The notes under the pieces were generated by a model. The model was not told where the DNA came from and did not search any database. It saw nothing but the letters and a program-made list of their open reading frames with translations. A stretch of 57,835 bases of DNA. Source: Candidatus Krumholzibacteriia bacterium. Lineage in GTDB: Bacteria > Krumholzibacteriota > Krumholzibacteriia > JAJRXK01. The stretch is taken from contig JAOZPE010000004.1 of NCBI GenBank assembly GCA_029932915.1, positions 71,873 through 129,707 of the forward strand, given 5' to 3'. Made by a program: the position numbers and the translations under genes. Shown piece after piece: positions 43,996 to 56,246 of this stretch. Within the stretch, counting starts at the first letter, position 1; each line of letters starts with the position of its first letter.

Positions 43996-44784
43996 TCAGA
44001 AGCTGCGGCTGAGGGTGAACGAAGAGGCCACGCCGCCGTTCCAGTCGGGGCCCACCTGCACGTCCATGCCGAAACCGGCGGCGTTGAGCATGTGCTCCTC
44101 GCCCGATCCCTCCCCGTCGTAGTCGGGAGGCCCGCTGCGCATGGCGTCGACGAAGGCGATGAGGCGATTCACCAGCGCGAGGACCAGGACGAAATCGGCG
44201 TTCTCGTAGGCGCCGTTGGCATCGCGCCGGAGGAAATTGTACTCGTCGTAGCGGGTCTCGCTCTGCCACCGCCAGGCATCCGATCCGGTGTACTCCGGAC
44301 CTTCCGGATCGAGACCCGCGCGCAGATCGCGGCGCCGGTCCTCGTTGTATTCCTCGCTGCTGCGGTAATTGCCCACGGTCCGCCAGTAGTCGTCGTCCCG
44401 GTCGGCCGCGGTCACACCGGCGAATCGCTCGGCGTACTCCTGGTAGCGGTCCTCCCGGCTGTGGCCCTGGATCTCGAAGACCGCGTAGGAGGTCCAGATG
44501 GCCGCCTCGACGGTGAGGAAGAAAGCGGCGCGGTAGTTGTGGTGCGAACGCAGTTGCGACCAGCCCGGCAGGACCAGCGAGAGCGAAGCGTGTTTGAGCC
44601 GTCCACCCAGATCTCCGCCGAAGACCGGCGCGGTCTCGGTCGAGGCGTTCGTTGCCGACGGATCGAGGGCGATCTCGGTGCTCTCGCGCATCACATGATC
44701 GATGGATCCGCCCGCGTGGGCCGGCGGCGCGGCCAGGCCCACCAGAACGGCCAACGACACCATGGAGAAGAAAGCCGTGCGCAT
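43996..44784 (-). CDS. Small envelope protein, DUF5683-like (paralogue A)
   Basis: 262 residues. Signal peptide (AFFSMVSLAVLVGLAAPPAHA). A hydrophobic hairpin region begins ASLSLVLPGWSQL, resembling the P-G-x-GQ motif of DUF5683-like membrane proteins, followed by an acidic middle part rich in Asp, Glu, Tyr and Arg (EYNEDRRRDLRAG...) and a second hydrophobic segment (VLVLALVNRLIAFVDAMRSG). It ends in alternating strand-like residues (SSFTLSRSF). The gene upstream (44787-45824) has the same plan. The ATG at 44784 with GAGGT at 7 nt is preferred over a TTG overlapping the previous stop. Function unknown. Confidence 0.65.
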   Translation of the reverse strand: MRTAFFSMVSLAVLVGLAAPPAHAGGSIDHVMRESTEIALDPSATNASTETAPVFGGDLGGRLKHASLSLVLPGWSQLRSHHNYRAAFFLTVEAAIWTSYAVFEIQGHSREDRYQEYAERFAGVTAADRDDDYWRTVGNYRSSEEYNEDRRRDLRAGLDPEGPEYTGSDAWRWQSETRYDEYNFLRRDANGAYENADFVLVLALVNRLIAFVDAMRSGPPDYDGEGSGEEHMLNAAGFGMDVQVGPDWNGGVASSFTLSRSF

Positions 44785-44786
44785 GG

Positions 44787-45824
44787 TCAATACCTCACTT
44801 GAAGCCCCAGGCGGGCCTGGCGGATGCTGCCGGCGTCGACGAACCAGTTCACCTGGGCCCCGTGGCTCTCTTCCAGATGGGCCAGCGAACCGCCTACTCC
44901 GGGGCCTTCGTAGTCGCTCTTGTAGCGGCCGCCGACGAAGCCCTCCAGATAGGCCACCTGCACCACGCTGAACACCCGCAGGATGAGGGAGATCGAGCGG
45001 AAGGTGTTGCTCTTGTCATAGGCGTCGTTCGAGGCGGTACGCATGTCCAGGTACTGATCGCGCAGAGGAGTCATGAACTCTGCCGGTGGGTGAGCCCAGT
45101 CCCAATCGACGGGATCGGTGATGCTGCGCGGCTTCGAATCCTCCCAGCCATACCAGAAGATGTCCCACTTGCCCAGGTTCTCGTAGTACTCGCGCGCGTC
45201 CTCTTCCCTGGAGACGTACAAGGGCACCTCGTCCTTGCTCTGGTAGTCGGTGCCGAACCACTCAGCTTGATCCTCCGTCCTTAGAGCCTCTTCCCACCGG
45301 TCCTCGCTCCAGTGGGCGTCGGCGAAGGCGATGTACTCGTCCTCGCGGTCGTCTCCCACCTGGTCGTAGTGGACGCTGGCCCCGATGGAGGCCACGTCGG
45401 CAGCCATCAGGAAGTACCCCCGCATGTGGCCGGTCACTGCTTCCCCCAGTCCGGGCAGGACGGCCGACATCACGAGCGGCCACCAGCGGCGCGGCGCCCC
45501 GGCCGCTCCGCTCGTCTCCCAGTCGGGTGTCACCTCCTCGCCCTCGGCCACGACCCGGTCCGCCTCCGATGCGCTCAGCAGGAAACGCATCCGGCTTGAG
45601 CTGGGATCGGAGAGCGCGGCGAGCTCTCCCACAGCACCCTGCCCGCCGGAGCCGAGCAGCTCCGCCGCCGGGTCGAAGGGGTGGATCCCGAGCGATACCG
45701 TCGCCTTCATCGAGCCCGGATCGAGCACGCCTTGGCCGGCGATGGTCGAAGCCAACGAAGGAGAGGCTCCTCCTGCCAGCGACGCGGCCACGAGTCCGGC
45801 AATCGTCCATTTCATCCAGCGCAT
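44787..45824 (-). CDS. Small envelope protein, DUF5683-like (paralogue B)
   Basis: 345 residues. Signal peptide (WTIAGLVAASLAGGASPSLA), then WWPLVMSAVLPGLGEAVTGHMRGYFLMAADV, a hydrophobic hairpin like that of its neighbour (PGLGEA versus PGWSQL). A Tyr/Trp/Asp/Glu-rich central stretch follows (DAREYYENLGKWDIFWYGWED), then SLILRVFSVVQVAYLEGFVGG and a C-terminal strand region ending LGLQVRY. It shares layout with the downstream gene; the pair look like ancient tandem duplicates. It lies 14 bp after the M6 protease gene. Function unknown. Confidence 0.65.
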   Translation of the reverse strand: MRWMKWTIAGLVAASLAGGASPSLASTIAGQGVLDPGSMKATVSLGIHPFDPAAELLGSGGQGAVGELAALSDPSSSRMRFLLSASEADRVVAEGEEVTPDWETSGAAGAPRRWWPLVMSAVLPGLGEAVTGHMRGYFLMAADVASIGASVHYDQVGDDREDEYIAFADAHWSEDRWEEALRTEDQAEWFGTDYQSKDEVPLYVSREEDAREYYENLGKWDIFWYGWEDSKPRSITDPVDWDWAHPPAEFMTPLRDQYLDMRTASNDAYDKSNTFRSISLILRVFSVVQVAYLEGFVGGRYKSDYEGPGVGGSLAHLEESHGAQVNWFVDAGSIRQARLGLQVRY

Positions 45825-45838
45825 GCCTGATCCACCTC

Positions 45839-48800
45839 TCAATTCTCGATGTAGAAGGGAATGATCTCGACCCGCCGCCCCGACGGAGAGAGGTAGTCGA
45901 GACGACAGAGATAGGCGCCCGACGCCAGGGTCTCGATCGGCAGATCGATCTCCGAGATGCCTTCCCCGTCGATCACCTTGTGGGTGCTGTAGCGGGTCTG
46001 ACCCTCCAGGTTCATCAGCGCGGCCGACGCGCTCTGCGACCCCCCGCTGACGAAGCGAACCCGAACCAGGTGAGTGGCCGTCGCGGGGTTCGGATAGACG
46101 AAGGGCCGGAACTCGGTGAGAGCGATCGCCCCATCCTCGCCCGGAGCCACACCCTCGCTCGCCCGGCCCTGCCGGACCACGCTCCCGAGCAGACCGCTCC
46201 ACTCGGCGAAGCGTGCCCGCGGAGTTGCCTGCGGCGGCGGCGGAACCTCCAGCTTCTGCAGACGAGGGCTGCGCACCGCCCCACCCTGGCGGATGGTGTC
46301 ACCCTCGGCCTCGAAGAAGAGCAGCGCGCGACGGGGGCTGCTCCCGTCGAGGTAGTCGACCACCAGCGGGGAGAGGACGTCTCCCCCGGTGAGTTTGCGC
46401 GGATAGCCCTCACTGGTGCGCCCATCGGCCTCCAGCGAATAGAGCAGGCCCATCTTGCTCTCGAAGACCAGCTCGTTGCGTCCGTCGCCGTCCACGTCGG
46501 CGATCACCGCACTGCCCTTGGGCTCGTCGATCTGCCGTTCGCCAGGACTCACCAGGAACTGATCGCGCAGGGGGATGGGAAAACCCCGCAACGAGGTGCC
46601 GTGCGCACCGCTGAAGGCCCAGATCCGTTCGCGATCGAAGAGCACCACGTCGCGGTGGCCGTCGCCGTCGAGATCCCCCAGCGCAACCGGTCCGGTCGCC
46701 GGCAGGGGAAGCAGTTCACCGAGACGCCGCAGACTCCAGTCGCCTTCATCGCTGACCGCCTCGAGCAACATGGTGTTCGCCTCGTCCTCGGAGGTATCGC
46801 AGAAGAGGAGAAGAACGCGGTCCGCCCCCTGCCGTCCCTCGGCCGGCCAGGAGGTCAGACTCCAGAAGGTCGCGCTGGAGGAAGGAGGCAAGAGAGCGGC
46901 GGTGGACAGATCGAAGACCCGCTGGGGAGCGGACGCGGAGAAGTCGTAAGCCAGCAGACGGCCGCTCACCACGAAGGCCAGCGACTCGACGCGGCCATCG
47001 CCGTCCAGATCGGCCGCGACCGGCGCGCTCTGAAGGCTGTCGGCCCCGGTCAGACCCAGTCCCCCTTCCCAGTCGGTCCAGTCATCGCGCACCCTTCCGT
47101 CCTCCTGCACCACGTAGAGACGGCTGCGGGAGAGATGCGCTCCGGCCAGGAGGACCATGTCCCCCCGCTCGAACATCACCGGACCGGTCTGGATCGAATC
47201 GCCCACCGAGACCGGGAACGCGGTGACCGGCTGGGCGCCGCCGGAGAGATCGGCCCGCAGCACCTCGACCGTTCCGTCGACGGTCATCAGCCCGAAGGCC
47301 TCCACTCCACCGAAGTGCGGCAGATAGCAGATGGGTCCGGTGGTCGGTGCGGGAAGGTCCAGGATCTTCGGGTCGGCCGCGGCGGGCCGGCCATCGAAGC
47401 CGTAGGCATAGAGCGCCGCGCCGGGTGAACCGTCGGCGGGCCAGGCGCTGACGACGATGCGGGGGCCCACTCCCGAGGAGGCGACGGGCCCCTCCAGGTG
47501 GCAGATGCTGCGCGCGTCACCCCGCAGGGGGACGACGCCGTCCGCAGTGGAGAGGGTGGGGAGCAACACGGGGAAGGCAGAGTCGTCGGCCACCGGCGAG
47601 GGCCGTACCATCGCCGACACGTTCATCATGGTGTCGCTGCGGCTCAAGCCCCAGAACGCCGCGCCGGTGGGAACGCGCATGGCGCTCTCACTGGACGGCG
47701 TCGTGTCCGGGGTCAGGGCGGTGGCGGTCGAGTCGACCTCGATGATCAGGGGCGGATCGCGCAGTTTGTCCTTGTAGGTGCCCGAGGCCCGGAAACAGTC
47801 GGTCTCGCTGCCGATGAAACCGACGGTGCGGAAGTCATAGTGTCCGATGTCCTGGATACCGTCGGCCTCGATGATCTCCAGCGAGAAATCGCCGACCACC
47901 CCCTGGATCTCGTTGGCGGCGATCCTCTGTTCGAGCAGATCCTCGCGGACCCGCCACACCATTGCGCCTCCCATCCATGGCAGGAAGAAGTCGTAGAGAT
48001 GCGTGTTCGGCGGACGAAGTTCATTGGTGTTGCGGCCCAGGTACAGGACCACCCCGGTGGACTGGTCGCGGATCAGGGCCCATTGCGGATTGCCCAGGGC
48101 ATCGACCGGAACGAAGGGAGGAACCCAGCGGTTCTCCACCAGGAAGAACTCGTCACTCCCGCTGTCCAGCAACAAGCCCTTGTCGTCGCGACTCTGCAGG
48201 TAGGAAGCCGGGATCCGGAGTTGACGGGGCTCGGCCCCCACGCGGATGGGATCGACCCAACCGAGGAACCACTTCGACCACAGGCCGATGCTCGGCGGCA
48301 GCAGTCCGGTGACCTGGATGGGCTCGCCGCCCGCCTCGAGCTGGACCACCGCGGGAAGATTGGTTCCGCTGTCCATCAGCTCCCACCAACCCGCGGTCGG
48401 CAGACCGGTGATGGTGCTGTAGATGTCCGGCAGGCCCAGCGAATGCCCGAACTCGTGGTACAGCGCGGCGGCGATGCTCCCCAGCAGGCCGTCCTGGGTG
48501 GTGCTCTCGGGAATGACACTGCACTCGGTCATCCGCCCCTGGGTCCCGGTCACGCTGTCGACCGACTCGAGGGTGACCGCGTCGTCATCGCCCAGCTGGA
48601 CGAAGAAGGTGGGGATGTCGTTGGGAGAATAGCCGTCGGCCCCCGGTTGCCACACCAGGTTGCTCTGCAGGTCGCCCCCGGCATGGGCGAAGATCACGTA
48701 GGCGTTGGGATTGTCGAAGTCGAAGTCGGCCAGGTTCACCGCCGGGTCGTCCAGGCTCGCCTGGTCGGCCGCGGTGATCATGTCCTGCACCAGCTTGACA

Positions 48801-49531
48801 AGCTCGTCGATGGTCCAGTAGCCCCCGTATCCAGGACCGTAGTCGGCGATGTCGCTCAAGCTGATGGCATTGCATGGATAGCGCTCGGCCTCGGGGTCGG
48901 CCGGTGGAAACACTTGCGCGTTCACCACCAGGCGGCCCCGGCTCATCGACGACCAGAAGCGCCCGAGACCCTCGATGTGCGAGTTGAAGAAGTTCTCGTC
49001 GTGCGGCGGCGGGTCGAAGATGATCGACGGGTCGGGCTCGCGCATGAAACCGCCGTCCTCGGTGACGCTGGTCAACGTTCCTGAACGGTCGGTCTCGAAG
49101 TCGATGAGAACCACGAGCACGTTGAGGGTGTCCGGAGCGACGGCCTCGATCCCCTTGGCCGCGACCTCCGCCCGGCGGCGCTGGGCCCGTTCCAGCCCCT
49201 TGCGGGAGATCCCGTGTGGACCCAGTTGCCGGCGGATCAGCTCTTCGGTCTCCTCCCGCCGGGCGAGCTTCTCCATCTGTTTCGCGGTGAGTTGCTTCCA
49301 CGAACGCACCGGTGCCACGCGCAGATTGGGGTAACGCGCCGTACCCGCCGGAACCGCATTCTCCAATTCGACGGCCGAGGCGTCCTCCACCGCACACGGC
49401 CAGGGAAAGGAGACGGCGAGAAGCAGCCATGCGCCCAACACGGCGGCCAGGAACAGATGTCCCCGGCGACGGACTCCACCCCCGAGGGCCGGGCCCGTCA
49501 TTCCATCTGCTGTGGACAAGTCGACCGACAT
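45839..49531 (-). CDS. Secreted M6-family metalloprotease with integrin-like repeats and T9SS-type C-terminal domain
   Basis: About 1230 residues. A hydrophobic signal region (HLFLAAVLGAWLLLAVSFPWP) is followed by an M6 (immune inhibitor A-like) catalytic domain: VLVVLIDFETDRSG, zinc site HEFGHSLGLPD (His359, Glu360, His363, then Gly/Asp) and Met-turn WWELMDSGT. The second half holds FG-GAP/VCBS-type Ca-binding repeats (VAADLDGDGRVE, ALGDLDGDGHRD, VIADVDGDGRNE). The last about 85 residues form an Ig-like domain opening FRPFVYPNPATATH, the pattern of T9SS sorting domains. It is next to porV and porU, so it is a likely T9SS cargo. The start is uncertain (ATG 49531 or GTG 49543). Confidence 0.85.
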   Translation of the reverse strand: MSVDLSTADGMTGPALGGGVRRRGHLFLAAVLGAWLLLAVSFPWPCAVEDASAVELENAVPAGTARYPNLRVAPVRSWKQLTAKQMEKLARREETEELIRRQLGPHGISRKGLERAQRRRAEVAAKGIEAVAPDTLNVLVVLIDFETDRSGTLTSVTEDGGFMREPDPSIIFDPPPHDENFFNSHIEGLGRFWSSMSRGRLVVNAQVFPPADPEAERYPCNAISLSDIADYGPGYGGYWTIDELVKLVQDMITAADQASLDDPAVNLADFDFDNPNAYVIFAHAGGDLQSNLVWQPGADGYSPNDIPTFFVQLGDDDAVTLESVDSVTGTQGRMTECSVIPESTTQDGLLGSIAAALYHEFGHSLGLPDIYSTITGLPTAGWWELMDSGTNLPAVVQLEAGGEPIQVTGLLPPSIGLWSKWFLGWVDPIRVGAEPRQLRIPASYLQSRDDKGLLLDSGSDEFFLVENRWVPPFVPVDALGNPQWALIRDQSTGVVLYLGRNTNELRPPNTHLYDFFLPWMGGAMVWRVREDLLEQRIAANEIQGVVGDFSLEIIEADGIQDIGHYDFRTVGFIGSETDCFRASGTYKDKLRDPPLIIEVDSTATALTPDTTPSSESAMRVPTGAAFWGLSRSDTMMNVSAMVRPSPVADDSAFPVLLPTLSTADGVVPLRGDARSICHLEGPVASSGVGPRIVVSAWPADGSPGAALYAYGFDGRPAAADPKILDLPAPTTGPICYLPHFGGVEAFGLMTVDGTVEVLRADLSGGAQPVTAFPVSVGDSIQTGPVMFERGDMVLLAGAHLSRSRLYVVQEDGRVRDDWTDWEGGLGLTGADSLQSAPVAADLDGDGRVESLAFVVSGRLLAYDFSASAPQRVFDLSTAALLPPSSSATFWSLTSWPAEGRQGADRVLLLFCDTSEDEANTMLLEAVSDEGDWSLRRLGELLPLPATGPVALGDLDGDGHRDVVLFDRERIWAFSGAHGTSLRGFPIPLRDQFLVSPGERQIDEPKGSAVIADVDGDGRNELVFESKMGLLYSLEADGRTSEGYPRKLTGGDVLSPLVVDYLDGSSPRRALLFFEAEGDTIRQGGAVRSPRLQKLEVPPPPQATPRARFAEWSGLLGSVVRQGRASEGVAPGEDGAIALTEFRPFVYPNPATATHLVRVRFVSGGSQSASAALMNLEGQTRYSTHKVIDGEGISEIDLPIETLASGAYLCRLDYLSPSGRRVEIIPFYIEN

Positions 49532-49593
49532 GCTTCCGTTCACCCCGTCGGCAGAAAGGCACCTCGCCGGATCGCTTCTGACGATCCGGTCGG

Positions 49594-50586
49594 TCAGAAC
49601 AAGAAGCCCAGGGAGATCCGGTTCACCCGGTCCAGATCCTTGGCTTGCGGAACGCTGGCGTAGTCCACGGTGATGGCCTGCCCGGTCCAGCGCGTGAGAT
49701 CGACACCGAGGCCCCAGGTATAGTCCTGGATCTCCCCTTCACTGTCATCCTTGTAGCCGAGACGGACGAAGAGGCTCTCCGAGTAGTTCCATTCGAGGCC
49801 CACTCCGAAGATCTGGGTGTTGTCCTCGCTCACCAGGCTGTTCAGGTAGTCGCCCACGAGCAGGAAGCCCATGTACTGGCTCTGGTAGAGCTTCCACGAC
49901 AGGCCCACGCGCCAGCTCAGCGGCATCGGATCGGACTGGTCGGCATCGATGAAGGTGATGTCCGGACCCCAGTTGGAGAGCTGGGTCCCCAGACGAATGG
50001 AGTCGGTGATGCGGTAGTGCAGACCGAGGTCGACCGCCCAGGTCGACCCGGTTCCCGAGCCGCGGTCCTGCGTGACCTCGTCCGGAGCCAGCTCGTTGCG
50101 GAAGTACTTCACCCCGACGCCTACGCCCAGATTCGAGGTGACCTTCACCCCGTAGGCCAGACCGACGGCGAACTCGTACGAACTGAAGGTCCCCAATTCG
50201 TTTCCACCCTCGTCGGTGCGCGTCTGCTCACCGTTGTTGAGATAGTTCACGTAGATGCCGAGCATGCCCCAGCCATTCACGTATTGGCCGTAACCGAGGA
50301 AATCCAGGCGGACGTCGTCGGCCAGGTCGGGCACCAACTTGGTGTCCATGAAGTGGAAGCCGTGACGACGGCCTCCGTCGGCGGCGAAGGCGAAGCCGCC
50401 GACGTTCCACCACATGGCGGTGATGTCGGTGCTGAGCGCGGTCCCCGACTCTCCCAGCGCGTTGTATCGAGCACCGATGGGAAAGGTCAGCGAGATCGCG
50501 CCGGCCTGGCTCACCGCGGCGGCCTCGTGCGTCACCGCGGTCAGCAGGGTGAGTACGGCCAGAGCGGCCAATAGGGAGCGGTTCAC
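49594..50586 (-). CDS. porV: PorV/PorQ-family outer-membrane protein
   Basis: 330 residues. Signal peptide (SLLAALAVLTLLTAVTHEAAA), then the PorV/PorQ hallmark SLTFPIGARYNALGESGTALSTDITAMWWNVGGFAF, followed by barrel strands (LNNGEQTRTDE, GVGLEWNYSESLFVRLGYKDD) and a C-terminal Phe (ISLGFLF), as in FadL-like barrels. In characterised T9SS, PorV shuttles cargo from the translocon to the PorU sortase. The start is a GTG at 50586 with AGGAGG 8 nt upstream. It lies between the porU-like gene and the M6 protease gene. Confidence 0.88.
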   Translation of the reverse strand: MNRSLLAALAVLTLLTAVTHEAAAVSQAGAISLTFPIGARYNALGESGTALSTDITAMWWNVGGFAFAADGGRRHGFHFMDTKLVPDLADDVRLDFLGYGQYVNGWGMLGIYVNYLNNGEQTRTDEGGNELGTFSSYEFAVGLAYGVKVTSNLGVGVGVKYFRNELAPDEVTQDRGSGTGSTWAVDLGLHYRITDSIRLGTQLSNWGPDITFIDADQSDPMPLSWRVGLSWKLYQSQYMGFLLVGDYLNSLVSEDNTQIFGVGLEWNYSESLFVRLGYKDDSEGEIQDYTWGLGVDLTRWTGQAITVDYASVPQAKDLDRVNRISLGFLF

Positions 50587-50663: not shown

Positions 50664-53600
50664 TCAACGCATCTTCACCACCCGGCCGGTCCGGCTCAAG
50701 GTGAGCGATTGCGTCGAGGTCTGAAGGAAGGTGGCGCGCACCGTGTACAGATACGCGCCGTTGGCGATTTCGTCCCCCCGGAAGTCCAGACCGTCCCACT
50801 CGATGACCAGCACTCCGCGCCGGGGCTGGACGCCCTTCAGGCGGCGGATGACCCGGCCGTCGAGCGAATAGATCTGGATCTCCACTGCCGCGGCGTCGGT
50901 GAGATCGACCACGAAACGCGTCGCATCCGAGAATGGACTCGGTACGGCCAGAGCGTCCCTGATCTCCAATGAACCCGCGGCCTGCAGCGTGAACGAGATG
51001 GTCGCAGTGGAGAGATTCCCCCGCGTATCGCTCGCGCTCAAGATCATGGTGTGATCGCCCGGATCGAGATCACCGGGCAGGGCATAGGCAAGACTTCCCC
51101 GGTCATAACGGCCGTCGTCCAGGTGGAAGAGACTCGTCACATCCAGGGGGAAGTCCGAATCGTCGAAATCGAGGTTGATCCGGCTGGCCGGAGAGTTCCC
51201 CAGCACATTGATGCCGCTGGGATCGCTGAGGACCGCGACCAGGGTATCCCCGGGGATCACCACCGGCGAAGGCGAGGAGAAGGCGAGCTGGATCTGCGGA
51301 CCGTCCAGGTCGTCGCTGTCGGTGGCACGCAGGACCACTGGAACCGGCTCGGCGTAGCCCGACAACATCCCGTGGGGATCGAGATCGGGCGAATAGAGGA
51401 TACGGACCCGTCCGTCGGGACCCGGCCGCAGAGCCACCGGAGCGGGAGCCTCCACCCGCAGAGTGTCCCCCACCACCGAACCCTCTCCCCGGAAGAAGGA
51501 CGCTCCATCGAGGACGTAGTCGATGTGGAAGATCGTGGTGTCGTTGTCCACGCGGCTGTAGCCCGAGTGATCGCGCGCCTCTTCGAGGCGGACCCGGTAG
51601 CGCCCGGAGAAGGGATGTCCGTCGGCGGTGAGCGCGGCCACGTTCCCCAGCACCCCGGTCTGGATGCTGTCGGCGAAGGCGCCGGACACCTGCAGTCCCA
51701 GCCCTGGAGCGGCCAGACTCAGGGCCGGGTCTCCGAAGAGGACGTACTTGCGGCTGTTGTTGTCGGTGAACGCGCTGCCGCCGAGCCCGGCCCGGGCGCT
51801 GCGCAGGACGGCTCCCACCGGCGGCGTGTCGGCCGGATCGTCGCTGGGGAACAACCACTCGTAGAGTTCGTCGGTCAGACTGTTGTTCGAGCCGACGAAG
51901 GTGACCTGGGTGGCGGCGATGGTCGCAATGGCCCCCCCTCCCGAATGGAGGACGAGCTGTTCGGACATGCTCTTCTCCGTCGGCGAGTCGAAGATGGACA
52001 CGTCGCACGAGAGCGCCATCATCAAGGGAAGCCGATCCTCGTTGGTGAGCGTGCCCACATCCTCGATGAGGAAGACCTTCTCGTCGGCCATCTGCTTGGG
52101 CGAACCGTGCCCGATGTAGTGGACGATGAGTTTGCCCGCCGACCACTGACGCTTCATCTCCGCCCGCGCCGCGGGCTTGTTGCGGGGCCCGGGGGGATTC
52201 GGGTACTCGGTCAGATACAGCTTGTTCACATCGAGCACCGGCGGCACGTATTCCTCAGCCAGCCGTTCTCCCTGGTCGATGTGGAAGCTCTCGGTCGTGC
52301 TTCCGGAGGCCAGGGACACCTCATCGTCACAGACCAGGAGGATGTCGTTGCGCCAGGTGCCGTCGGCCGGCGAACGCTGGTACTCCACCAGGCGGCGGGC
52401 CACCATGCGCGCCTCGGCGGCGTTGGCCACCGGCAGCCGGCCGATCGCCAGCTCGGCCAGATCGTAGGGAGCGAGCCCTTCGGTATTGCTGCTGTCGGGC
52501 GCGTCGAAGGCTCCCAACCAGTCGTCCGAGGGGAAGGGCACCCACTTCTCGCCGCCCCGCGAATAGAACGAGTTGCTGTGCGGCCAATGGGTCTGGATGT
52601 AGGTGGGGCAACGGTCGCGTTCCTGTTCGCCGATGCTCGAGGGCAAGCGGCTGCGGTAGTCGCGGCTGGCGTCCCCCACCAGCAGGACGTACTCGGTCTG
52701 GCGTCCCGATTCTCCGGCGACCTCGTGCAGATAGCTGAACTTCAGGAAATTGCGCAGGGCCGCCGGTTCCTTCACCCCGTACCCGAAGCTGTCCCACACG
52801 TCCTGCAGATCGACGACCCCAACCCGCGGGGCCACGAGGGGATCGCCGGCGCCGTCGTCCAGTTCCATCCGGTGGAAGTCGGCCAGATCGCCCACCCCGT
52901 CGAGCAGCTCGGAGGGACCGACCACCACGTAGTCCCATCCCCCCTGCTGGAAGACCTCGCTCCGCAGATGACGCGGATCGGCCAGGCTCAAGGCCAATGG
53001 CTGCCGCACTCCGCGCGGCTGGTAGACCGCCAGATGCAGGTTCGGCCGGGCCAGGGTCTCGATCCTCAGGGTCATGCCACTGCCGTCCACCGTGACCGCG
53101 GTGAGCCGGACCGGATGCAGCGGGTCGCTGGTGTCCAGCACCACCGTCCCGTCCTCGAAACCGGTCGAAGCGGTTTCATCGTCCCCGACGACGAAGGTGC
53201 GGCCCACCGGTGAGGTGTACTCATCGGGAAAGATCATCCACTCCAGGCGGCCTCCCCGTACGAAGAGCCGGCGGCGATAGCTCAGGTCCACCAGGTCGAG
53301 GTCGATGCGCGTGCCGGTCGAGCGGTTCACCACCTGGATCTCGTTGAGGCCCTCCACAGGAGCGGGCATCGACATCCCGAAGCGGATGGGTTCGCTGTTC
53401 CAGACCTGCTGGTTGAAGCTCCAGGTGAAGGTCCCCAGATCGTGTCCGTTGGACAGGACCTGGACGCGGGGCGTGCCGCTCACCCACAGGGTCACCGGAT
53501 TCACGTACAGCCGGCCGTCCGCGTCCACCACATGATCGGCCGCCCATTGGAGGCGTTCGGCTTCTCCCTCCTGCAGGGGGATCGCCGTCTGGGTCCAGTT

Positions 53601-54731
53601 GTCCTGGACGATGCCGTAGCGCATCGCCTTGGCGTCCTCCCGGTGGACACGCTCCCGACAGGTGGACACCTCCCCGTCGACAGACGGTGGAGCACCGCTC
53701 TCCTCCATGCGCAGGGGCGGGTCGTCGAAGGAGGTATCGTCCTCGCCCACCCTCTCCCAGCACAACCACAGGGCCAGGCGATCGGCGTACTCGTGCTCGA
53801 TGTGGTCGAAGGACGCGGCCGAGGGATCGTGCCGGTCGAGCCAGGTGTCGATCCCCCCGTTGTAGAACAGGAACTCGTCTCCCGGCCCCATGCCCACCAG
53901 CGGCTGCGCCGCCCACACGAGCAGGGGACGCTCGACGAGTCCGTAATCGGACTCCCAGCTCTGCTCCCCCACGTTCGGGTCGATCGACTGCAGCAGATGC
54001 GGGGAAGCGAAGAGACGCAGGGTCGCCGGATCGATCGACGATGCCTCCGACAGCAACACGGCCTCGAGATCCTCGAAGCGCACGCGGTACAGCCCGGTCT
54101 CGGAGATCTCCAGGCGCAACCAGCGCGGAGAGCGGGCAAAGGTGTCCTCCTGGCCGGGCGCCCGTTTGGCCGCGCTCTCCAGCTGTGCCACCTGGGCCCG
54201 GCGGAAGGCCCGGGCCGCTTCGGGGTTGATCAGGCCCGCGGTGGGAAGGTGGCGGGCCGGATCCATCGCCCAGTCGGCGGGCGGAGGCAGGAATTCCCCC
54301 GCCAGGGCCGGGTGTTCGAAGTCCAGACGCAGGCCGCGCAGACGCAGGGGACGGCCCTGCTGGTCGAGGTAGTGCAGACGGACGGTGGCCACCACGCGCC
54401 ATACCCCGCGTACCCGCACCGGAGGACCCAGTTCGACCAGTTCGCGGTCGCTGGAGACCTGGGGCAGCCCCTCCCGCCGGGCGGCGGGTTCCGAGCGCCG
54501 CTCGTCCACCCTGAGCTGCGGCAAGCGGTTCGAGGGCAAGGCGATCACCAGCCGAGCGGTCTGTGCCTCGTTGGATCCCGCTTCCCAACGTAGATGCACC
54601 ACGGTGCGGTCCGGACCCTGCTCGAGCACCTGTATCCGCGGACGTGCAAGAGCACCGGACACACCGCCGAGGAGAACCAACGCAACGATGGCTCCCACCC
54701 CAAGACGGCAGGTCACGGATACGGCTCTCAT
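50664..54731 (-). CDS. porU: PorU-like type IX secretion C25 cysteine sortase
   Basis: 1355 residues. Signal peptide (VGAIVALVLLGGVSGALA), a long N-terminal beta-rich region, then the gingipain-type C25 domain: YVLLVGDASRDYRSR, AIGRLPVANAAEARMV, catalytic His875 in IVHYIGHGS, catalytic Cys909 in LMMALSCDVS, and YVLFGDPALSL. The His-Cys distance (34 residues) is like that of gingipains. The C-terminus is a FlgD/Ig-like sorting domain (IQIYSLDGRVIRRLKG...EWDGLDFRGDEIANGAYLYTV). PorU cleaves T9SS cargo domains and attaches the protein to the surface. The ATG at 54731 gives a clean signal peptide; no strong ribosome binding site. Confidence 0.87.
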   Translation of the reverse strand: MRAVSVTCRLGVGAIVALVLLGGVSGALARPRIQVLEQGPDRTVVHLRWEAGSNEAQTARLVIALPSNRLPQLRVDERRSEPAARREGLPQVSSDRELVELGPPVRVRGVWRVVATVRLHYLDQQGRPLRLRGLRLDFEHPALAGEFLPPPADWAMDPARHLPTAGLINPEAARAFRRAQVAQLESAAKRAPGQEDTFARSPRWLRLEISETGLYRVRFEDLEAVLLSEASSIDPATLRLFASPHLLQSIDPNVGEQSWESDYGLVERPLLVWAAQPLVGMGPGDEFLFYNGGIDTWLDRHDPSAASFDHIEHEYADRLALWLCWERVGEDDTSFDDPPLRMEESGAPPSVDGEVSTCRERVHREDAKAMRYGIVQDNWTQTAIPLQEGEAERLQWAADHVVDADGRLYVNPVTLWVSGTPRVQVLSNGHDLGTFTWSFNQQVWNSEPIRFGMSMPAPVEGLNEIQVVNRSTGTRIDLDLVDLSYRRRLFVRGGRLEWMIFPDEYTSPVGRTFVVGDDETASTGFEDGTVVLDTSDPLHPVRLTAVTVDGSGMTLRIETLARPNLHLAVYQPRGVRQPLALSLADPRHLRSEVFQQGGWDYVVVGPSELLDGVGDLADFHRMELDDGAGDPLVAPRVGVVDLQDVWDSFGYGVKEPAALRNFLKFSYLHEVAGESGRQTEYVLLVGDASRDYRSRLPSSIGEQERDRCPTYIQTHWPHSNSFYSRGGEKWVPFPSDDWLGAFDAPDSSNTEGLAPYDLAELAIGRLPVANAAEARMVARRLVEYQRSPADGTWRNDILLVCDDEVSLASGSTTESFHIDQGERLAEEYVPPVLDVNKLYLTEYPNPPGPRNKPAARAEMKRQWSAGKLIVHYIGHGSPKQMADEKVFLIEDVGTLTNEDRLPLMMALSCDVSIFDSPTEKSMSEQLVLHSGGGAIATIAATQVTFVGSNNSLTDELYEWLFPSDDPADTPPVGAVLRSARAGLGGSAFTDNNSRKYVLFGDPALSLAAPGLGLQVSGAFADSIQTGVLGNVAALTADGHPFSGRYRVRLEEARDHSGYSRVDNDTTIFHIDYVLDGASFFRGEGSVVGDTLRVEAPAPVALRPGPDGRVRILYSPDLDPHGMLSGYAEPVPVVLRATDSDDLDGPQIQLAFSSPSPVVIPGDTLVAVLSDPSGINVLGNSPASRINLDFDDSDFPLDVTSLFHLDDGRYDRGSLAYALPGDLDPGDHTMILSASDTRGNLSTATISFTLQAAGSLEIRDALAVPSPFSDATRFVVDLTDAAAVEIQIYSLDGRVIRRLKGVQPRRGVLVIEWDGLDFRGDEIANGAYLYTVRATFLQTSTQSLTLSRTGRVVKMR

Positions 54732-54811: not shown

Positions 54812-55075
54812 TCAAGCCTCGTGGTGAGCCTCCAGCGAGATCGATTCGCCGATGAGCAGGACCGGAATGCCATCGCGTACCGGATAGAGAACCGCTCCGT
54901 CGAGGGTGACCAGGGCCTCTTCGATGGGCTCGGTCACCTCCTGACCATCGCGGTTGCGCAGGTCACCGCGCGCAATGCGCTCATTGACCTTCTCCAGTAC
55001 GCTGCGGTCCGCTTGTCGAAGCGGCTGTTTCGTTTCCGGACAGACCAGGATCTTCAACAGATCTTCGGCGATCAA
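54812..55075 (-). CDS. Trm112-family small protein
   Basis: 87 residues. It begins LIAEDLLKILVCPETKQPLRQ and ends with DGAVLYPVRDGIPVLLIGESI, the conserved frame of bacterial Trm112/UPF0434 proteins. Only one cysteine (CPETK) is left of the usual zinc pairs, as in the CPETK-type subgroup. Trm112 proteins act as methyltransferase partners in other organisms; its role here is unknown. The start is a TTG at 55075 with AGAGGAG 4 nt upstream; no ATG or GTG is available. Confidence 0.82.
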   Translation of the reverse strand: MIAEDLLKILVCPETKQPLRQADRSVLEKVNERIARGDLRNRDGQEVTEPIEEALVTLDGAVLYPVRDGIPVLLIGESISLEAHHEA

Positions 55076-55265: not shown

Positions 55266-56246
55266 TCAGGAACCCTCCTCCTCCCAGACTCCCATGTTCA
55301 GGAACTTGGCCAGCCGGTTGTCCAGCAAGGCCTGCACCGAAAACGCGGAAAGCTCCTCGAGAGCCTCGTTCAGCCGCTTGCGAATGGTGTCGGCGGTGGC
55401 CTGGGGATCGCGGTGGGCCCCGCCGAGGGGCTCGGGCAGGACCCCGTCGACCACTCCCCGCTCATACACCTGGCGGGCGGTCACGCACATGGCTTCGGCC
55501 GCCTGAGGGGCCTTGGCCCGGTCGTTCCACAGGATGGCCGCGCAACCCTCCGGACTGATCACCGAGTAGATGGAATTCTCCAGCATGTAGACTCGATCGC
55601 CCACGGCCAGGGCCAGGGCGCCCCCGCTGCCTCCCTCACCGGTGATGAACACCACGATGGGCACGGGCAATCTCGACATCACCTTCAGGTTGCGGGCGAT
55701 GGCCTCGGCCTGCCCCCGCTCCTCGGCACCGACGCCGGGAAAGGCCCCCGGAGTGTCGATGAAGGTGACGACGGGAATGGAGAACTTCGCCGCCAGTTCC
55801 ATCAGACGCAGAGCCTTGCGGTATCCCTCGGGATGGGGCATCCCGAAGTTGCGGTGGATGTTGCTCTTGGTGTCGCGCCCCTTCTGATGGCCCAGCACCA
55901 TGACCGCCCGGCCGTCCAGGTGCGCCATGCCGCCGACGATGCTGGCGTCGTCGCGGTAGGCCCGGTCGCCGTGCAGCTCACGGAAGTCGTCGAAGATCAT
56001 CCCGATGTAGTCGAGGGTATAGGGGCGGCGCGGATGACGGGCCAATTGCACTCGTTGCCAGGGATCGAGCTTCGAGAAGATCTGCACCCCGAGCTTGTTC
56101 ACCCGTTCGCGCAGTTGCTCGATTTCACGGCTCACGTCGAGATCGGTGCCCTTGGCCGACTCCTGGAGCGCCTGGATGCGCTCCTCGAGTTCGACGATGG
56201 GCTTCTCGAAATCGAGATGAATCCCCGCCTTCTTCGGATCGACCAT
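55266..56246 (-). CDS. accA: Acetyl-CoA carboxylase carboxyltransferase subunit alpha
   Basis: 326 residues, family length. With AccD it transfers CO2 from carboxybiotin to acetyl-CoA, the first committed step of fatty-acid synthesis. Conserved blocks: [102 protein letters not shown] and [36 protein letters not shown]. It lies next to dnaE, an association seen in many bacteria. Confidence 0.97.

Follow-up and report, generated by a model that had tools for sequence, protein, structure and literature searches.

The window, i.e. the whole stretch of DNA analysed here, comprises 57,835 nucleotides (contig JAOZPE010000004.1, positions 71,873 to 129,707 of the forward strand) from the assembly GCA_029932915.1 of a Candidatus Krumholzibacteriia bacterium, whose genome of 2.92 Mb consists of 98 contigs and is 98 % complete. 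One of its genes codes for a large protein with a peptidase C25 domain and a C-terminal domain (CTD). This locus raises the question whether the protein is PorU, the sortase of a type IX secretion system (T9SS), or an ordinary secreted protease, and whether its CTD and that of a neighbouring metalloprotease belong to two different types of sorting domain. Our analysis indicates that the gene is very probably the porU of a Krumholzibacteriota T9SS, whose product would be a surface sortase with a retained CTD, and that the two types are two models of one domain family.

Identification of the C25 protein as PorU

The PorU equivalog model NF033707 matched the protein with 427.5 bits (cut-off 420) at model positions 4-1085 of 1095. 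The match spans both protein ends, thus the PorU model itself covers the CTD. Peptidase_C25 of Pfam scored 247.6 bits (cut-off 23). A profile of 27 PorU rows of the phylum, window included (alignment A1), assigned 396.7 bits to PorU of P. gingivalis (structure 6za2), the next C25 protein being gingipain R with 48.1 bits; the window sequence alone retrieved 6za2 with 124.3 bits. These scores bear out the first-pass annotation, which had read the gene as that of a PorU-like sortase. Based on an AlphaFold2 model of residues 200-1355 (mean pLDDT 87.3, pTM 0.83), Foldseek ranked 6za2 first (E 2e-54, 1240 columns). With 6za2, the window protein shares the long profile and fold match, the catalytic pair, an own CTD with NGxYLY and the 17-residue junction described below. 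The two proteins differ in that they are only 17-19 % identical (structure alignments) and stem from different phyla, and in that GldL, GldM and GldN were not found in the window genome.

The same annotation had considered the enzyme active, with His 875, Cys 909 and the motifs GHGS and ALSCDVS intact. In the ATG numbering used throughout (an alternative TTG start at 54815 gives 1383 residues), His 875 lies in the GHGS motif at 874 and Cys 909 in the ALSCDVS motif at 906, as had been claimed. Both residues align with the His and Cys of 6za2 and are, like Glu 884, identical in all 27 rows of A1. In a wider alignment of 43 rows (A2), His and Glu are kept in 43 and Cys in 42 rows. Judged by these conserved residues, the enzyme is probably active.

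Six places of the genome, porU included, matched C25, five of them above the cut-off. Four of the paralogues were scanned with NF033707 and reached 50 to 139 bits; note that three of these four are clipped by locus ends or lack a start. One paralogue (L004, contig C12:63097-67371) is a second PorU-like C25 protein; it scored 138.7 bits and ends in a tail of the PorU kind, with 25 residues behind NGTY. Several genomes of the phylum contain PorU-model matches of about this extent. A phylogeny with Bacteroidota PorU, which had been proposed as a check, was computed as a quick tree (no bootstrap). It grouped the window PorU with Krumholzibacteriota relatives (value 91; 98 for 6 rows), some records of the window's class being labelled Latescibacterota in their titles. 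The grouping with relatives of the own phylum thus stands, but the joining point of the paralogues and of P. gingivalis PorU is not settled; long branches lead to own_C64 (4.5), own_C12 (2.7), the stem of the C77 pair (2.2) and P. gingivalis PorU (2.4).

The C-terminal domain and the sorting-domain family

The FlgD/Ig-type CTD predicted in the first pass was recovered: FlgD_ig (PF13860) scored 31.2 bits with the protein and 35.7 bits in a genome search (cut-off 27), and ANGAYLYTV stands at position 1323. The model TIGR04183 remained below its cut-off of 23 bits, with 14.8 bits for the protein and 20.2 bits in the genome search. For this region plus the stretch just before it, the AlphaFold2 model predicts seven strands forming an all-beta domain. 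Such family matches and the predicted seven-strand fold are features shared with the TIGR04183/PF18962 and PF13860 domains. The own CTD had been highlighted in the first pass; the domain is present but not unusual, as PorU of P. gingivalis bears its own CTD as well, which is reportedly kept uncut (PMC11285876, PMC5562754).

The FlgD-Ig type of PorU had further been set against a YPNP type in the neighbouring M6-family protease, such that two sorting-domain types might coexist. This contrast fails, because the window PorU reads P-S-P at the PNP position (residues 1264-1266) and PNP stands there in all phylum rows but this one (26 of 27). A profile search of the own genome (G000; places counted at E 0.1) gave 62 places for TIGR04183 and 70 for FlgD_ig, the union being 74. 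Both models matched 58 of these places, TIGR04183 alone matched four (among them the M6 neighbour) and FlgD_ig alone twelve; 42 of the 74 passed both cut-offs (place score). The scores of the two models correlate (rho 0.51). Among the 73 domains that could be read to a stop, 66 contain PNP or PSP, 58 contain WxGxD and 54 contain both motifs, as counted by simple patterns; at least one of the 74 places (L293, 16 bits) is not CTD-like. The 58 shared places and the 54 domains with both motifs indicate that the two labels represent two models of one domain family, and the assumption of two separate types was rejected on these counts.

A stronger version of the idea, namely that two sorting systems with separate recognition coexist, a FlgD-Ig type for PorU and a YPNP (TIGR04183) type for the protease, could draw on the fact that the CTD of the M6 protein matches TIGR04183 and not FlgD_ig, and on the opposite preference of PorU (35.7 versus 20.2 bits). 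Moreover, the genome has enough PorV-family places for several shuttles, and PorV paralogues closely follow three of the CTD places. We nevertheless regard coexisting systems as improbable, since the dual matches, the correlated scores and the co-occurring motifs describe one continuum. No paper that connects FlgD with type IX secretion and sorting domains turned up in a literature search.

Within this family, the CTD of PorU is a distinguishable subtype, characterized by NGxY, a longer last hairpin and a junction of 17 residues, which we interpret as a property of PorU. After the Tyr of the last GxY, 28 residues follow in the window PorU; the number is 26 or 27 in 28 of 30 further phylum PorU proteins (L070-L099), the other two having 32 and 35. 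These 30 are the best-scoring matches of the phylum and not a random sample. In the 71 other CTDs of the own genome the median is 19, with 18-20 residues in 63 cases and a range of 18-26. Type A sorting domains hence differ from the CTD of PorU, which lies under the TIGR04183 cut-off and in nearly all phylum rows has 26-28 residues behind the NGxY Tyr. Note that 86 distinct PorU tails cover 21 to 35 residues and overlap with the 18 to 26 of the other CTDs. The residue preceding the Gly of the last GxY is N in 29 of the 30 PorU proteins (NGTY 28, NGVY 1, FGTY 1); among the 71 other CTDs it is S in 57 and N in 4.

The junction between Phe 1247 and Pro 1264 comprises 17 residues in all 27 rows of A1 and in 39 of the 43 rows of A2 (16 to 20 in the remaining four), and 17 were also counted by eye in the aligned sequence of 6za2. 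This constancy implies that no variable linker precedes the CTD of PorU, and we propose that PorU spares its own CTD because the junction is free of a linker. In P. gingivalis, the CTDs of PorU and PorZ, both of which reportedly remain uncut, are described as having an additional hairpin behind strand five, which cut domains lack; when this hairpin was placed in a cargo protein, cutting still went on (PMC11285876). This 2024 work describes the features telling retained from cut domains as still undetermined (PMC11285876). The question of what marks a retained CTD becomes testable; our data point to a rigid junction.

Translocon, motor and the proposed role of PorU

PorU thus represents a known architecture identified in a new phylum, and the surrounding system is the more interesting matter. 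SprA was detected in the own genome with 547.3 bits (TIGR04189). In a set of 69 genomes of the phylum (at least 80 % complete), SprA was found in all 69 at E 1e-10 (65 over the cut-off), and the PorU model likewise matched in all 69 (50 over the cut-off), although a match may be a paralogue. The PorV family occupies eleven places of the own genome, five of them over the cut-off, and one of these is the gene next after porU. The first-pass annotation had named secreted C25 proteases in a genome without T9SS as the outcome that would speak against it. This case did not occur, because SprA, the PorU model and the PorV family were all matched; a T9SS is thus supported with respect to translocon, PorV-type shuttle and cargo-type domains. 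These findings place the sortase-shuttle pair and the translocon of a type 9 system in a candidate phylum.

From 352 relatives found by an alignment scan of genome contigs, 79 loci were kept (named loci, L100-L178), some of which are the same genes as in L070-L099 (e.g. L094 = L102); a scan of the contigs with a single protein had yielded no relative among 26 pattern matches. PorV lies directly downstream of porU in 61 of the 67 named loci whose sequence continues for 1300 nt or more, the exceptions being L133, L137, L143, L145, L154 and L159. ANGTY was part of one of the two scan patterns, which biases the frequency of NGTY in these loci; only the 30 proteins L070-L099 escape this bias.

Three CTD matches elsewhere in the own genome (C9:20525-20755, C55:36810-37076 and C70:38421-38585) are followed, 201-267 nt past their ends, by matches of the PorV family (C9:20956, C55:37343 and C70:38801). 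With their porU-like spacing, they are perhaps dedicated pairs of cargo and shuttle. The sprA gene (contig C95, L191) is located head to head with two genes for LptF/LptG permeases (Pfam). Six further sprA loci (L192-L197) resemble it by eye, most of them with rimP- and nusA-like genes (by eye) on the other side; in L192 and L195 an M28 peptidase lies in between.

Components of the motor were not found. GldM was absent from the matches in all 69 phylum genomes and in a set of 26 (the own genome and 25 reached via named loci). This set includes the genome of the Melioribacter roseus record L175, a cultured relative that has sprA, porU and porV. The search was controlled with 118 genomes of the phylum to which an Ignavibacterium (G069) belongs, where 31 had any GldM match, 28 of them over the cut-off; the control genomes are probably Bacteroidota, in which GTDB places Ignavibacterium. 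GldL and GldN were searched in 57 of the 69 genomes (the omitted 12 are all under 85 % complete), in 13 others and in ten of the control genomes, chosen for having GldM. Neither protein exceeded its cut-off in any of the 57 or the 13, and both did so in 10/10 controls; GldK and PorW/SprE were not searched genome-wide. Weak fragments of GldL below the cut-off occurred in three of the 57 genomes (E 0.0009 to 0.007, frames of 548-894 aa) and in one of the 13, and one of the 13 gave a weak GldN match. Profiles of GldM, GldL and GldN derived from the control loci had no match at E 1 in 2336 open reading frames (ORFs) of 86 loci, i.e. the surroundings of porU (79) and sprA (7) only.

With the T9SS of Flavobacterium and Porphyromonas, which comprises GldKLMN (PorKLMN), the system therefore has SprA, PorU, the PorV family and type A-like domains in common; it differs in that GldL, GldM and GldN were not found (GldK was not searched). 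The system resembles a T9SS that lacks the known motor; remote homologues of the motor proteins, or energy from an unrelated source, are possible. A similar combination is on record for another group: in a survey of 2020, which covers 11 components, Bacteroidetes incertae sedis appear with Sov, PorU, PorV, PorQ and PorZ, and PorK, L, M and N are missing (PMC7323717). A 2016 genome survey, whose model included GldK to GldN, found the T9SS in Bacteroidetes only (PMC4793230), and a T9SS has been proposed for Fibrobacter succinogenes (PMC6851124). Literature searches naming Krumholzibacteriota found no T9SS paper on this phylum among the papers listed, and a publication on Cloacimonadota (PMC8542988) mentions the T9SS or type IX secretion in its reference list only. 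Whether type 9 export can do without GldLM becomes a testable question, since SprA and PorU are kept throughout the phylum and no motor can be recognised.

Tentatively, a more general picture can be drawn. In Krumholzibacteriota, and probably in other FCB groups beyond the classes whose T9SS has been studied, the system might consist of SprA, PorV-type shuttles and PorU without a GldL/GldM motor and GldN, the release of cargo from SprA being powered otherwise. The third gene of the porU-porV block, which combines M6, propeller and CTD and whose active site is lost in Ignavibacteria and some other rows, could then code for a structural partner of PorU, akin to PorZ. We consider this picture possible rather than probable.

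For PorU itself, the assignment is backed by orthology, the kept catalytic residues, gene order, the translocon gene, the many cargo-type domains and the constant junction; we infer its secretion, the retention of its CTD, the docking on PorV and the chemistry of cutting and transfer. PorU would be exported by Sec and would pass the outer membrane via SprA, using its own CTD. It would stay on the cell surface through the uncut CTD, probably docked on the PorV of the next gene. The pair Cys 909/His 875 would cut CTDs off cargo delivered by PorV-type shuttles, and the cut cargo would be released or joined to a surface glycolipid.

Several observations weigh against this assignment. The NF033707 score is barely over its cut-off, and 19 of the 69 phylum genomes are without an over-cut-off match (several of their matches are fragments). 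The superposition of the whole model on 6za2 is poor (Foldseek: TM 0.44, root-mean-square deviation (rmsd) 19.4; VIA-align: Z 25.3, 821 residues, rmsd 13.5); the domain arrangement may thus differ from 6za2, and the models suggest that single domains match but their arrangement does not. In VIA-align, the catalytic domains of gingipains rank above 6za2, with Z values of 37.1-40.5 over about 330 residues. A PorU-like protein labelled Latescibacterota (L146) has S in the column of Cys 909, and its M6 neighbour is without the zinc motif. Finally, as GldM, GldL and GldN were not found, the mode of operation may differ from that in Bacteroidota. The gingipain matches, together with the further C25 proteins of the genome, could also be taken to mean that the protein is an ordinary secreted C25 protease, a gingipain-like cargo whose CTD is a cleavable sorting signal. 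Such a protease would hardly match the PorU model from end to end when four paralogues reach so little of its score, and the porU-porV order, the fixed junction and the longer tail are unlike cargo; we deem it very unlikely. It was rejected on the NF033707 match, the paralogue scores and the profile score of 6za2.

A harder choice concerns the second half of the reaction. PorU might be a signal peptidase only, which releases cargo and does not act as a sortase attaching it to lipopolysaccharide. In P. gingivalis, attachment involves A-LPS delivered by PorZ (PMC8545088), and neither was shown here: among the proteins scanned with NCBIfam, the only match of the PorZ model was one of 20.5 bits (cut-off 260) in the CTD of a paralogue (L005). 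However, PorZ, PorQ and a glycolipid or lipopolysaccharide pathway were not searched genome-wide, a gap that also counts against a sortase, and in P. gingivalis one active site does both reactions. The two LptF/LptG genes adjoining sprA show nothing directly. Release without attachment is a serious alternative, although we think it the less probable outcome, and a sortase with a retained CTD remains our assignment.

Genes of the porU-porV block and its surroundings

The features of the locus are compiled in Table 1. For porV, the longest ORF extends to 50799.

Table 1. Coordinates of PorU, its domains and the neighbouring genes in the window
Feature	Position	Strand	Description
porU	50664..54731	minus	PorU orthologue, ATG start, 1355 aa, single open frame
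PorU layout	50664..54731	minus	signal-peptide-like N-terminus (by eye), N-terminal domains, C25 catalytic domain, Ig-like domains, C-terminal domain
PorU C25 catalytic domain	51714..52931	minus	PF01364 match, residues 601-1006 (ATG numbering) or 629-1034 (1383-aa reading); contains H875 and C909
PorU CTD	50664..50942	minus	starts at P1264; FlgD_ig match; NGAY plus 28 residues to the end
porV (PorV/PorQ family)	49594..50586	minus	330 aa, GTG start behind AGGAGG, 77 nt past the porU stop; NF033709 188.3 bits (cut-off 90)
M6-family metalloprotease	45839..49543	minus	predicted beta-propeller, TIGR04183-type CTD; third gene of the porU-porV block
Small protein (frame as read)	44787..45665	minus	relatives behind the porU-porV block in 27/79 named loci (tblastn)

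An M6-family gene follows further down on the same strand in 43 of the 49 named loci with at least 5000 nt (exceptions: L111, L115, L131, L143, L145 and L159). The record labels of loci with both PorV and M6 include Krumholzibacteriota, Latescibacterota, Eisenbacteria, Gemmatimonadota and Ignavibacteria. The M6 protein of the window contains HEFGHSLGLPD at position 363 and YPNP at 1150, and TIGR04183 scored 23.1 bits (cut-off 23). HExxHxxG is present in 29 of 58 M6 proteins or fragments. In an alignment of 35 rows, nine do not keep both His residues: five from Ignavibacteria/Melioribacteraceae, two from Bacteroidetes, one from Latescibacterota and one unlabelled. The family NF052323 (T9SS-dependent M6-like inactivated metalloprotease) matches the M6 neighbour, and a relative from Ignavibacterium (L161) reaches 1016.5 bits; the window protein differs in retaining HExxHxxGxxD and scores 152.4 bits (cut-off 600).

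A model of residues 101-1234 of the M6 protein (pLDDT 82.2, pTM 0.84) consists of an N-terminal part with the protease motif, a propeller-like part and a seven-strand CTD. Its first Foldseek match in the PDB was PorZ (5m11, E 6e-10), but the TM values were only 0.12-0.17. The propeller part superposed on a designed propeller (VIA-align: Z 27.7, rmsd 2.8, 313 residues), many unrelated propellers reached Z 24-28, and PorZ was not among the best 50 rows. The fold match of the model with PorZ may hence rest on the common propeller and Ig folds. The PorZ model NF052228 gave no match for the window protein (E 0.1) or for two of its relatives (E 0.001); by sequence model, the M6 protein is not PorZ. 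Gene order and architecture are such that it could be a partner of PorU.

Two small genes follow the M6 gene at 43996-45665. The product of the first gave no Pfam match and one NCBIfam match far under the cut-off; the second has a weak DUF5683 match. In the 79 named loci, relatives of the first lie behind the porU-porV block in 27 and those of the second in 14; such loci include L111, L115 and L131, in which no M6 gene was detected. Upstream of porU, at 55266-56246, lies a gene that is accA-like by eye and has a match in 27 of the 79 named porU loci.

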